From: Alphaproteobacteria bacterium
GTDB taxonomy: Bacteria > Pseudomonadota > Alphaproteobacteria > Micropepsales > Micropepsaceae
Assembly (NCBI GenBank): GCA_016792565.1
Contig: JAEUMK010000104.1
Coordinates: 1-64,000 of the forward strand
Length of the DNA: 64,000 bases
Direction: 5' to 3'
The notes beneath the pieces were generated by a model. It searched no databases and was not told the origin of the DNA. It worked only from the letters and a program-made list of their open reading frames with translations. Positions 47,819-53,108 of the stretch are shown piece by piece (position 1 is the first letter of the stretch; each line of letters opens with the position of its first letter). Both the position numbers and the translations under genes were made by a program.

Positions 47819-48280
47819 ATGGATCCGATCTGGCTGGACTTCGTGCTGGCCTCGCTCCACCACACGGCGGTGTTCGCGCTGTTCACGATCCTTGCGGTGG
47901 AGATCGTCTATGCGAAGCCGGGGCTGAGCGCCGCGACTTTGCGCCGGCTGGGAACGATCGACATGCTCTACGGCCTCAGCGCCGCCGCGGTGCTGATCGC
48001 CGGCATCGCGCGCGCGGTGTGGGGACTGAAGGGCTGGGACTATTACGCCGCCAATGCGCTGTTCTGGACGAAGATCGGCCTGTTCGCCGGGATCGGGCTT
48101 CTCAGCCTCGTCCCGACGCTCGCCTTCCTGCGCTGGAATGCGCGGCTGAGGGCCGATCCGGCCTATCTGCCGCCCGACGCCGAGGTGCAGGCCAACCGCA
48201 AGTGGATGCACATGGAGACGACGCTGCTCATCCTCATGCCGATCGTCGCGGCGGCGCTGGCGCGGGGCCTGGCCGACTGA
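47819..48280 (+). CDS. DUF2214 family membrane protein
   Basis: A 153-residue protein with four transmembrane helices. The conserved SLHHTAVFALFTILAVEI and the DMLYGLSAAAVLIAGIARAVWGLKGWDYY stretches match DUF2214. Function unknown. It is convergent with rpoH, leaving 3 bp between. Confidence 0.87.
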   Translation: MDPIWLDFVLASLHHTAVFALFTILAVEIVYAKPGLSAATLRRLGTIDMLYGLSAAAVLIAGIARAVWGLKGWDYYAANALFWTKIGLFAGIGLLSLVPTLAFLRWNARLRADPAYLPPDAEVQANRKWMHMETTLLILMPIVAAALARGLAD

Positions 48281-49326: not shown

Positions 49327-49540
49327 GGGGGCCCTTGGCGAGGCGCTTGGAGGTGCCCGCCATCACGGTTTCGGGACGTGCGCGACATTTTGTTTCGCGC
49401 AGGCGGAAGAAAGCATCTTCGTTCCGCACCCGCCCCGGGGAGGGGGAGGGGTCGTCGGCGGGCCGATGGGGGCTGTTTCCTTCCTCCGCTACTGCACCGC
49501 GGGGATGTAGGACTAAATTCCGGATTCCGCAAGGGTTCGT
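49327..49540. other. Intergenic stretch without a convincing gene
   Basis: This part of the 590-bp gap between rpoH and the DUF3299 operon has no ORF with protein-like composition. It contains a CGCACCCGCCCCGGGGAGGGGGAGGGG patch resembling the spacer palindrome at 42536. I see no RNA gene. Confidence 0.5.
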
Positions 49541-49784
49541 CCTTCGAGACAGGCGCTTGCAGCGCCCTCCTCAGGATGAGGAAGGTTAGGGAATCTGCGA
49601 GATCGGGGTGGTGGGGTTGTGGGTCCTTCGAGACGGGCGCTTGCAGCGCCCTCCTCAGGATGAGGAAGGTTAGGGAATCTGCGGGATAGGGGTGGTGGGG
49701 TTGTGGGTCCTTCGAGACGGGCGCTTGCAGCGCCCTCCTCAGGATGAGGAAGGTTTGAGACTTTTCGGGATCGGGGCGGGCGCT
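49541..49784. repeat. Tandem 84-bp palindromic repeat, three copies
   Basis: Copies start at CCTTCGAGAC at 49541, 49625 and 49709, an exact 84-bp period. Copies one and two differ at few positions; the third diverges after the core. Each core holds GGGCGC-TTGCA-GCGCCC and CCTC-AGGAT-GAGG hairpins (the first copy has one base changed). The core resembles a widespread alphaproteobacterial intergenic palindrome. The array ends at the 3' end of the DUF3299 gene. Confidence 0.92.
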
Positions 49785-50267
49785 TCAGGGGGCGGGGGCG
49801 GCGTTCTTGAGCTGGAAGAAGAGGCCCTGCTCGCCGTTGTCGATCAGCTCGAAGCGGCCGGTGAAGGCGGCGAGGTCGTAGGTCAGCTTGACCGGCTCGT
49901 CGCTCCAGACCTCGATCACCTCGTCGGGCTCGCCGGGCGGGCAGAAGGCGCAGACCGGGGTGTTGCGGGTCAGCAGGAAGTGGCGCGAGGTCTCGTCGGT
50001 GTCGAGCGGCATGGTGAAGCCGGCGATGGTGAGCGTCCGGCCGGCGAGCGCCTTGACCTCGGCCGGGTGGACGGCGGTGAAGAGGCCCTTGTCGGGGTCG
50101 ATGTCGATCTTCGTCGCGGCGAGGGTCGCCCAGATCTCGTCGGGCGAGCGGGGCAGCGCGGCCTGGGCGTCGCGCTCCTCGGCCGGCTGGCCGAGCGGCG
50201 GGTCCTCGGCCGAGGCCGCGCCGCAAAGCGTCAGCACGCAGGCGAGGGCGGCGAGCCGGGCGTTCAC
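49785..50267 (-). CDS. DUF3299 family exported protein
   Basis: A 160-residue protein with a signal peptide (1-21, ending ASA) and a DUF3299 domain: IAGFTMPLDTDETSRHFLLTRN followed by the Cys pair in CAFCPPGEPDEVIEV. It is probably periplasmic. It is the last gene of the operon and overlaps the paralogue upstream by 4 bp (ATGA at 50264-50267). Function unknown. Confidence 0.85.
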   Translation of the reverse strand: MNARLAALACVLTLCGAASAEDPPLGQPAEERDAQAALPRSPDEIWATLAATKIDIDPDKGLFTAVHPAEVKALAGRTLTIAGFTMPLDTDETSRHFLLTRNTPVCAFCPPGEPDEVIEVWSDEPVKLTYDLAAFTGRFELIDNGEQGLFFQLKNAAPAP

Positions 50268-50743
50268 AGGAGACGCTCCACGCGCGCATCGCGCAGGCGG
50301 TAGAACAGGCCCTCGGCGGAATCGGCGATCGTCTCGAAGATGCCCGAGACGACATATTCGTCGGCCGTGAAGGTGAGTTCCGAGAGGCTGAAGATCTCGA
50401 TCGCCTCGGTCAGCTCGTTGGGCGGGCAGAAGGAACAGGTCGTGTTGCGCCGGGTCAGAACGAAATGCGTGAAGCTGGTGCGCGCGTCGAGCGGCAGCAT
50501 GAAGCCGCCGATGCGGAAGGGCTTGCCTTCGAAGGCGCGGATCTCCGGCGTGAAGGCGGCGGTCATCAGGCCGCGTTCCGCGTCGATGTCGAGTTTCGCG
50601 CCGTTGAGGACGGCCCAGCCCGGATCGTCGTTCTGGATGTGCACCGGCGCGACGGGGTCGGGGATTTCCTGCTCCATGTAGGCGGCGAGCGGGAGGGTCG
50701 CGACCATCAGCGCACCGGCCTTGAGAAACGCGCGTCTGTCCAT
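50264..50743 (-). CDS. DUF3299 family exported protein, paralogue
   Basis: A 159-residue protein with a Tat-like or Sec signal (MDRRAFLKAGALMVATLPLAA). It aligns by eye with the downstream gene: IGGFMLPLDARTSFTHFVLTRRN and CSFCPPNELTEAIEI. The duplication is old, as sequences differ widely outside these motifs. An ATG at 50752 overlaps the permease stop (ATGA) and could be the coupled start instead. Confidence 0.85.
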   Translation of the reverse strand: MDRRAFLKAGALMVATLPLAAYMEQEIPDPVAPVHIQNDDPGWAVLNGAKLDIDAERGLMTAAFTPEIRAFEGKPFRIGGFMLPLDARTSFTHFVLTRRNTTCSFCPPNELTEAIEIFSLSELTFTADEYVVSGIFETIADSAEGLFYRLRDARVERLL

Positions 50744-50748
50744 GTGCC

Positions 50749-51957
50749 TCATCCCGACTTCAGCGTCTGAGCCGGGTCCAGTCTATAGGCGGCGAATGCG
50801 GGCGCGAATGAGGCGGCGAGGGCGAGGCCGGCCGCCGCGCCGAGGGCGGCGAGGTCGATGAGGCCGGGCGGGGCGATGGCGAGTTCCGGCCCGCCGCCGG
50901 AAGCCGCCGCAGCGCCGCCCAGCATCGCCATCGCGTGGCCGATGCCGATGCCGGCGAGGCCGCCCGCGAGGCCGAGCAGCAGCGCCTCCAGCAGCACCGC
51001 GCCGAAGAGCAGGACCGGCCGCGCGCCCAGCACGCGGAGCAGCGCCAGTTCGCGCCGCCGCTGCTGCACGGCGGCGAAGAGCGTGACGACGAAACCGAGC
51101 GCCGAGAGGCCGAGCAGGGCGAGGCCGAGCCAGCGCACGACATCCGCCCCGGCCCCGAGCAGGCTGCGCAGCCGCGCCGCCTCGACGGCCGGGATCGCCG
51201 CCTGCATGTCGGGCATGGCGTCGACCAGGCGCGGCAGGAGGATCGCGCCGGAGGCCGATTTGTAGCGGATGAGGAGGGCGGTCACTTCGCGCGGATGCGG
51301 CGCGGCGGCTTCGCCATGCTCGGCCGCGACCTCCTCCTCCTCGTGCTCGTGGATTTCCCAGACGCTTTCGGGGCCGGTGAGGACGAGGCGATCGACCACC
51401 GTACCCGAGGGCTCCAGGATGCCGACGACGCGATAGGGGAATTCGTCATGCGTCTCGCCGCCGCCGGCGAGGCCGTGCTGGCCGGCGAAGGTGCCGCCGA
51501 TGTCGAGGCCGAGCGTAGCCGCGGCGGTCGCGCCGAGCACCACCTCGAAGGGCGCGGACCAGAGCGCGCCGCGCGCCAGTTTCGCGCCGTAGAGGCCGAG
51601 ATAGGCCGGTGTCGTGCCGACGATGCGCAGGCCCTTCACGCTGTCGCCGAGCGAGAGCATGGCGGAGGCCGCGACCAGCGGATGGCCGGCGAGCTTCTCG
51701 GCCGCCGCGAGCGGGATGTTGCCGGTCGGTACGTCGACCTGGAACAGCGACGACATGATGAGCTGGAGCGGACTGCCCTTGGCGCCGACCACCAGATCGA
51801 CGCCGCCGAGATCGGCGGCGAAGCGGCGGTCGAGCGCCTGGCCGAGCAGCAGCACCGCGACCACCACGCCGACGCCGAGCGCCAGCGTGAGGACGTTGAA
51901 GGCCCACACCAGCGGATTGCGGCGCACGAAGGCGAGGACGAGTTTCGCCGTGTTCAT
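50749..51957 (-). CDS. ABC transporter permease, FtsX/MacB-like, with His/Glu-rich loop
   Basis: A 402-residue permease: an N-terminal helix (about 18-40), a large periplasmic domain (about 45-270) and three C-terminal helices (about 275-390), with the FtsX-like RRRELALLRVLGA segment. The periplasmic domain contains HGLAGGGETHDE (about 161-172) and a striking E-I-H-E-H-E-E-E-E-V stretch from 201, then EHGE and HPRE, which could bind metal. It forms a pair with the ATPase upstream (ATGA overlap). It is a LolCDE/MacB-type architecture; the substrate is unknown. Confidence 0.88.
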   Translation of the reverse strand: MNTAKLVLAFVRRNPLVWAFNVLTLALGVGVVVAVLLLGQALDRRFAADLGGVDLVVGAKGSPLQLIMSSLFQVDVPTGNIPLAAAEKLAGHPLVAASAMLSLGDSVKGLRIVGTTPAYLGLYGAKLARGALWSAPFEVVLGATAAATLGLDIGGTFAGQHGLAGGGETHDEFPYRVVGILEPSGTVVDRLVLTGPESVWEIHEHEEEEVAAEHGEAAAPHPREVTALLIRYKSASGAILLPRLVDAMPDMQAAIPAVEAARLRSLLGAGADVVRWLGLALLGLSALGFVVTLFAAVQQRRRELALLRVLGARPVLLFGAVLLEALLLGLAGGLAGIGIGHAMAMLGGAAAASGGGPELAIAPPGLIDLAALGAAAGLALAASFAPAFAAYRLDPAQTLKSG

Positions 51958-52592
51958 GGCAGCGCCTCGATGGCGACCTGGCGGGCGATGCGCTCGCGCA
52001 GGCGGCGGTCGTGGGTGGCGATGACGAGCGCCGCGCCGTTCGCCGCCGCCGCCGCGAGGAGCAGGTCGCAGACCGCGGCCGCGGCCTCGTCGTCGAGGCT
52101 GGCGGTCGGCTCGTCGGCGAGGATGAGCTTGGGCTTCTGCAGCACGGCGCGGGCGATGGCGACGCGCTGCGCCTGGCCGCGGCTGAGGCGGGCGGCGGCG
52201 GCGTGCGCCAGGCCGCCGAGGCCGAGTTCGCCGAGCAGCGCCAGGGCGCGGGCGCGGTCCTGCGGCGCGCCGGCGGCGTAGGGCGCGAGCAGGACATTGT
52301 CGAGGGCGCTGAGGCCGGTGACCAGGTGCAGGTCCTGAAAGACGAAGCCGATGCTGCGGCCGCGGAAGCGGTCGCGGCGGGCGGGCGGCAGATCGTGGAG
52401 ATCGATGCCGCCGACGGTCGCGCGCCCGGCATGGCGGCGGGCGAGGCCGGCGATGGCGAGCAGCAGCGTCGTCTTGCCCGAGCCGGAGGGGCCGGTGAGC
52501 AGCGCCGCCTCGCCGGGCGCGAGGGTGAGGTGGCCCAGGCGCGCGACCGGGCGCGCGCCATAGCCGCTGGCGAGGCCGTCTATGTCGAGCAT
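51954..52592 (-). CDS. ABC transporter ATP-binding protein (LolD/MacB-type)
   Basis: A 212-residue ATPase. Walker A GPSGSGKTT, Q-loop VFQDLHLV, signature LSRGQAQR (non-canonical in third position), Walker B LILADEPTASLD and the H-loop ATHDRRL are present. It partners with the permease gene, whose start overlaps its stop. The Trx-fold gene overlaps its start by 13 bp. Confidence 0.93.
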   Translation of the reverse strand: MLDIDGLASGYGARPVARLGHLTLAPGEAALLTGPSGSGKTTLLLAIAGLARRHAGRATVGGIDLHDLPPARRDRFRGRSIGFVFQDLHLVTGLSALDNVLLAPYAAGAPQDRARALALLGELGLGGLAHAAAARLSRGQAQRVAIARAVLQKPKLILADEPTASLDDEAAAAVCDLLLAAAAANGAALVIATHDRRLRERIARQVAIEALP

Positions 52593-53065
52593 CGGCGCGT
52601 CCAGTCCCTGGCGCGTTCGGTGCCGAGGAGGCCGAGATGGCGCGCGCAGATGCCGCCCGCGCCGTCGAGGGCGATGGCGTAGGGCAGGCGGCGGCCGCCT
52701 TCGGAGGCGGCGGCGAGCACGGCTTCGGCATCCGCCTCGCCGCCGGCCACGGCGTAGGCGCGCCCGGCTGCGAGGCCGAGATCTTCCAGCTTCGCGGCGG
52801 CGGCGGCGGCGGGTTCGAGCGCCACGGTGATGAGGCGGCCGGGCCGGGCGGCCTCGTCGAGCGCCGCGAGATGGGCGAGCTCGATCAGGCAGGGCGCGCA
52901 GTCCGAGCGCCAGAAGAGGACGATCGCCGGGCCGCCGCTGACCTCGGAAAGCGCAATTTCGGGGCCGCCGCCGAGCGGCGTCAGGCGCGGGTCGAAGGCA
53001 TCCGGCGGCGGGGCCGGGGCGGCGGCCAGCAGGATCGCGGTCAGGACGGCCATGGGGAGCGGCAT
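52580..53065 (-). CDS. Thioredoxin-fold exported protein
   Basis: A 161-residue protein with a hydrophobic signal segment (1-18) and a TlpA/thioredoxin-like domain. The redox motif is in FWRSDCAPCLIELAHLAAL (CAPC). Thioredoxin-fold proteins secreted with transporters often keep cysteines reduced or deliver metal. It is the first gene of the ABC/DUF3299 operon. The start is ATG 53065; a GTG at 53071 is possible. Confidence 0.8.
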   Translation of the reverse strand: MPLPMAVLTAILLAAAPAPPPDAFDPRLTPLGGGPEIALSEVSGGPAIVLFWRSDCAPCLIELAHLAALDEAARPGRLITVALEPAAAAAAKLEDLGLAAGRAYAVAGGEADAEAVLAAASEGGRRLPYAIALDGAGGICARHLGLLGTERARDWTRRCST

Positions 53066-53093
53066 GAACACGCCGGGACGAATAGCACAGGGT

Positions 53094-53108
53094 TGATACA
53101 GTGTAACA
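53094..53108. promoter_or_regulatory. Operator-like inverted repeat upstream of the ABC operon
   Basis: TGATACA-G-TGTAACA is a 7-1-7 inverted repeat with one mismatched pair, 29 bp upstream of the ATG at 53065. The position suits a repressor. The half-site does not let me name the family; a metalloregulator is plausible from the operon content. Confidence 0.5.

Follow-up and report, generated by a model that had tools for sequence, protein, structure and literature searches.

A five-gene operon on the minus strand, at positions 53065-49785 of the window (the whole 64,000-nucleotide stretch of alphaproteobacterial DNA that was analysed), probably encodes a Zur-repressed machine of zinc starvation, i.e., a type VII (MacB/LolCDE-like) ABC transporter that handles periplasmic zinc together with periplasmic partners. 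The layout of the operon, the homology of its products, their conserved residues and a predicted Zur box are all supported by sequence comparison, and are presented below together with the alternative substrates that have to be weighed.

Organization of the operon

An earlier note on this DNA had described five genes overlapping by 4-13 bp that encode a thioredoxin (Trx)-fold protein, a LolD-type ATPase, an FtsX-like permease with a HEHEEEE patch and two DUF3299 paralogues. Both parts of this description hold: the list of open reading frames and their translations give a minus-strand run with overlaps of 13, 4, 4 and 4 bp, and the ATPase, the permease and the second DUF3299 protein (DUF3299-b) are confirmed by Pfam. 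The Trx-fold protein and the first DUF3299 protein (DUF3299-a) score under the Pfam cut-offs, the latter being assigned through the match of its branch alignment to the solved structure 4hsp (see below). The features are as follows.

53095-53107, minus strand: predicted Zur operator GTTACACTGTATC, within a 15-bp imperfect palindrome TGTTACACTGTATCA, its center 36 bp from the Trx ATG
52580-53065, minus strand: Trx-fold protein (TlpA/Redoxin-like, periplasmic) with the motif WRSDCAPC, of which CAPC lies at 52889-52900, plus Cys140 and Cys159
51954-52592, minus strand: LolD/MacB-type ABC ATPase (Pfam ABC_tran, 108 bits)
50749-51957, minus strand: FtsX/MacB_PCD permease (type VII ABC), the ZrgB/PA4065 equivalent (MacB_PCD, 53 bits; FtsX, 52 bits)
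51448-51477, minus strand: His161 (51475-51477) and His170 (51448-51450) of the permease periplasmic domain, conserved and, with His203, forming a candidate metal site
51295-51351, minus strand: His/Glu-rich periplasmic loop of the permease, residues 203-221, beginning at the invariant His203
about 51351-51331, minus strand: HEHEEEE patch of the permease, residues 203-209
50264-50752, minus strand: DUF3299-a, with a Tat-type signal (DRRAFLKAG) and CSFC at 50426-50437
49785-50267, minus strand: DUF3299-b (Pfam, 27.5 bits), with CAFC at 49941-49952 and a predicted OB-type fold

The start of the Trx gene is placed at the ATG at 53065, which agrees better than the GTG at 53071 with the corresponding gene of a Caulobacter metagenome-assembled genome (MAG; L039).

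A predicted Zur operator precedes the operon

Zur sites of Caulobacter crescentus follow the pattern GTTA-N5-TAAC (PMC4176598). With one mismatch allowed, this pattern has a single match in the 64-kb window, at 53095-53107. This box lies in the gap that separates the Trx start from the pseudouridine-synthase gene upstream, and it differs at one base from the consensus of Caulobacter. At this stringency 0.72 matches are expected per 64 kb, and about 0.001 in a gap of such size. Additionally, the pattern GTTAYANTRTATC has exactly two matches in the 3.07-Mb genome, one before this operon and one before znuCB-COG0523, a count that is suggestive rather than an unbiased test because the degenerate R position was picked with the window site in view; the reversed control of the pattern has no match in the same genome. 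The strict consensus GTTATANTATAAC, with two mismatches allowed, does not recover the window site, which has three. The second half-site in the host genus seems as a rule to be TATC, since the box before znuCB-COG0523 reads GTTATAATATATC in one genome (G000) and GTTACATTATATC in two others (G003 and G004).

The closest full operon (permease, 60%) is that of the Caulobacter MAG, in which the same five genes are preceded by a perfect box, CGTTATAATATAACG, located 38 bp from the Trx ATG as compared with 36 bp in the window, and in which zur is divergent from the operon. The regulator at this locus shows strong matches only to E. coli Zur and to one further member of the Fur family, as does the Zur candidate of the window genome, and the best PDB match of the Bacteroidota regulator tested is likewise E. 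coli Zur, though with only a modest margin over Fur. A survey of upstream boxes across loci relied on a rough automatic detection of operon starts, which missed the perfect Caulobacter site through a wrong start codon, so that its counts are only indicative. Regulation of the operon by Zur is well supported at the level of sequence, through the predicted operator.

The Zur box before znuC-znuB-COG0523 was seen in all three loci inspected (G000:C8, i.e., L154 2106-4980; L179; L180), and the box of the host znuCB overlaps the start of a His-rich ORF of ~50 aa.

Distribution and zinc-related neighborhood

A scan of the genome collection with the window permease alone gave no matches, and a search with an alignment of three permeases gave 570 candidates, 80 of which were kept. 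The window permease falls in a well-separated and well-supported clade, apart from the permeases linked to ZrgA and marked by the hallmarks VVGAKGSPLQL and PTGNI. This branch spans Alpha-, Beta- and Gammaproteobacteria, Bacteroidota, Rhodothermota and one Latescibacterota MAG. A survey of the neighborhoods of 97 branch loci, which are not mutually independent, found DUF3299 in 91, a Zur-like Fur in 32, COG0523 in 24, ZnuA in 4, ZnuB in 3 and ZrgA in none. About two thirds of these loci lack a Zur gene nearby, which weighs against the zinc reading; three Fur-family genes were found in each of three genomes, from which we estimate that such a gene would be a neighbor by chance at ~1 locus in a hundred. 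The placement of the Zur gene differs between groups: it lies downstream in Pedobacter but upstream in betaproteobacteria, and it is convergent at L033 and divergent in the Caulobacter MAG. At two loci (L162 and L167) znuA stands in front of the ATPase gene.

The earlier note had guessed at a metal role and proposed a DUF3299 neighborhood survey as a check, with non-metal partners as the outcome that would speak against it. Such partners did not occur as a pattern in the surveyed loci; the survey returned a zinc-starvation context (Zur, COG0523, ZnuA and ZnuB), which, together with the operon's own Zur-type operator, supports the guess and makes zinc the best-supported metal for this predicted system.

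Of the five host-genus genomes, only that of the window contains a close permease match, and among the other host-family genomes searched a single one (G006) has another, at 48%; the operon therefore looks either horizontally acquired or often lost. According to Pfam, all five host-genus genomes, one of them a single contig, have ZnuB and no ZnuA, the ZnuB of the window genome lying on another contig than the operon. Substitution for the missing ZnuA was considered and rejected as a general reason for the presence of the operon, since the other four genomes without ZnuA are also without a close permease match.

Relationship to Zrg-type and other zinc systems

In Vibrio and P. aeruginosa, Zrg-type systems help to sustain growth when zinc is limiting. 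The zrgABCDE operon of Vibrio and PA4063-4066 of P. aeruginosa are both Zur-regulated, and each includes a DUF3299 gene: zrgE in V. parahaemolyticus (PMC9817125) and PA4066, whose product is the solved DUF3299 structure, PDB 4hsp (PMC8561739). In V. cholerae, ZrgA is treated as a zinc-binding protein critical to the system, and zrgE knockouts show no growth phenotype (PMC9820375), which weighs against a zinc role of DUF3299 operons.

The window operon shares with ZrgABCDE (V. parahaemolyticus VP_RS01455-01475; V. cholerae) the combination of a split ATPase, a MacB-like permease and DUF3299 in one operon, Zur regulation (here by way of the predicted operator) and the permease His triad, which is common to the ZrgA-linked permeases of L035, L036 and L037. 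It differs in the absence of ZrgA, in the presence of the Trx protein, in a permease of a separate clade and in having two CxxC DUF3299 proteins as opposed to one of the CIHxPPPP type in ZrgE/PA4066. Similarly, PA4063-PA4066 has the same transporter class and a DUF3299 structure that is the only significant match of the DUF3299-b model, but the window operon lacks a PA4063 (ZrgA) and carries the CxxC motif, the Trx protein and the His/Glu loop of the permease. The ZrgA profile, PF10986, has no match anywhere in the window genome, although it did match in the positive controls (G037, G044 and G057). ZrgA-linked operons are found in alphaproteobacterial genomes (L035-L037, with PF10986 confirmed), and their DUF3299 motif is CIHVPPPPPNQ or a close variant. 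The link between DUF3299 and Zrg loci that the earlier note had drawn is documented, but it does not extend to membership: without ZrgA, the operon does not belong among Zrg systems in the strict sense, and is better described as a ZrgA-less sister variant of the Zrg/PA4063-4066 kind.

The operon is also distinct from ZnuABC, as Pfam finds neither a PF00950 permease nor a PF01297 binding protein in it. The znuGHI genes of Caulobacter crescentus likewise form a Zur-repressed ABC system in an alphaproteobacterium, but were rejected as the same system because their permeases are annotated as ABC-2 type, another permease family (PMC4176598).

The permease and its possible substrates

The AlphaFold model of the permease (pLDDT 92.6) has MacB (5gko, 7e-18) as its best Foldseek match, followed by a Streptococcus MacB-like transporter and LolCDE, in line with a fold and ATPase class shared with the MacB/LolCDE type VII transporters. 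The permease carries a conserved triad of histidines: His161 is present in 41/41, His170 in 40/41 and His203 in 41/41 aligned branch permeases, and all three are also kept in the four ZrgB-type permeases compared and in L038, whereas they are absent from six generic MacB-like permeases (antisense ORFs among these controls were disregarded). The loop that follows His203, HEHEEEEVAAEH in the window, varies but recurs across the branch, in most cases with many His and acidic residues. Literature searches found no described His-rich FtsX/Zur system.

The main rival to zinc handling is that, when zinc is scarce, the machine exports a metallophore, free or in complex with a metal. Such a role, instead of zinc handling, has been proposed for PA4064-4065, a MacB-type exporter whose cargo may be pyochelin-cobalt (PMC11481552). 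This would fit the type VII/MacB fold found by Foldseek and the buildup of pyochelin and cobalt in PA4065 mutants (PMC11481552). However, the operon lacks a MacA-like adaptor, and a branch that spans phyla is unlikely to serve one metallophore substrate. We therefore consider metallophore export unlikely, if less so than the alternatives that follow. The operon is also unlike MacAB-TolC, in which ATPase and permease are fused in MacB and a MacA gene is adjacent; here the two are encoded by separate genes.

A further alternative, which we judge improbable, is a machine akin to LolCDE or YbbAP, extracting lipids or lipoproteins for envelope repair under zinc starvation. LolF is the best match of the permease by sequence profile, with LolCDE also among the matches and again near the top of the Foldseek results, and YbbAP-TesA provides a precedent for such an activity (PMC12646458). 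The His triad, the acidic/His loop and the CxxC OB-fold partners argue against it, as do the zinc-gene neighbors and NCBIfam scores far under the Lol equivalog cut-offs (lolCE, 30 bits vs. 362 for the permease; LolD, 144 vs. 308 for the ATPase), which exclude the permease from LolC/E; the ATPase falls under the cut-off of every NCBIfam family among those listed.

Two variants of the permease locus deserve mention. In a 1.4-Mb alphaproteobacterium (L033, 5280-6686) the related permease has a greatly enlarged loop with 19 His, and behind its gene come DUF3299 and a Zur-like gene in convergent orientation. At L038 (5833-7712) the permease/ATPase pair adjoins pstS- and phoX-like genes, and the three His are kept despite these phosphate-related-looking neighbors.

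The DUF3299 pair and the Trx protein

DUF3299-b scores above the Pfam cut-off of 22 bits, and its AlphaFold model (pLDDT 90) has PA4066/4hsp as its sole significant Foldseek match, with weak OB-fold matches that include CusF. DUF3299-a, at 17.3 bits, is under the same cut-off; despite this low score it can be taken as a DUF3299 homologue, because the alignment of the branch DUF3299 proteins matches 4hsp at 7e-10. The CxxC motif is present in 109/115 aligned DUF3299 proteins and its first Cys is invariant. The Tat-type signal of DUF3299-a reaches TIGR01409 at its cut-off, suggesting that this protein may be exported already folded. Each of the two proteins has its own counterpart in the Caulobacter MAG, which places the duplication before the split between the two operons. 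The two-copy set that the earlier note had found distinctive is thus real and old, but it is less distinctive than claimed, since between two and four DUF3299 genes are present at 22 of the 97 branch loci.

The score of the Trx protein falls just short of the Pfam cut-offs for AhpC-TSA/Redoxin, and all four of its Cys are invariant across three genomes (window, L039 and L040). As its gene was found in only three related loci, any role would be lineage-specific at best. A copper or other thiophilic-metal system, in which Trx and CxxC proteins resemble copper-site assembly, would suit the CAPC Trx-fold protein adjoining CxxC proteins and the weak resemblance to CusF, but is very improbable given that the Zur-type box and the Zur/COG0523/ZnuA neighbors point to zinc.

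Betaproteobacterial loci have, between the permease and DUF3299, an extra Cys/His protein of ~80-130 aa with endings such as CGMKHKH (L075 7240-7515, L094 7139-7534, L110 7125-7373 and L118 7251-7538); the one tested has no Pfam match.

A proposed mechanism

For the zinc-handling machine favored here, we infer metal binding, ATP-driven transfer, the role of the Trx protein and the direction of movement from the features described above. When zinc is scarce, Zur would leave the operator and the five genes would be made together. The ATPase would then drive the permease dimer, moving its large periplasmic domain, and the candidate three-His site and flexible His/Glu loop may do the metal-capture job of ZrgA. 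The two CxxC DUF3299 OB-fold proteins could exchange zinc, or a ligand carrying it, with the permease in one direction or the other, and the Trx-like protein may keep their cysteines reduced in the oxidizing periplasm, just as TlpA keeps copper-site cysteines reduced. MacB and LolCDE act on the periplasmic side, with no passage of small ions through a central channel; periplasmic zinc handling is therefore favored over direct import, with the permease loop and the CxxC DUF3299 pair taking the place of ZrgA. In its most specific form, which we put forward only tentatively, this machine would be widespread and would serve zinc starvation independently of ZrgA. Its permease would have its own metal-capture loop and three-His site, and a CxxC OB-fold pair, one member Tat-exported and both held in the reduced state by a Trx protein of their own, would replace the soluble binding protein.

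That a multi-phylum branch keeps the transporter, DUF3299 and zinc-gene neighbors without ZrgA suggests that ZrgA is not part of a universal core. His161, His170 and His203 of the permease and the first Cys of DUF3299, which are kept in both branches, offer a testable common mechanism.

Immediately downstream of the operon lie three tandem 84-nt direct repeats that are 82-100% identical (window 49539-49790). Also near the operon, but outside it, a gene for a DUF2214 membrane protein is found next to one for an RpoH-like sigma factor (window 47819-48280).
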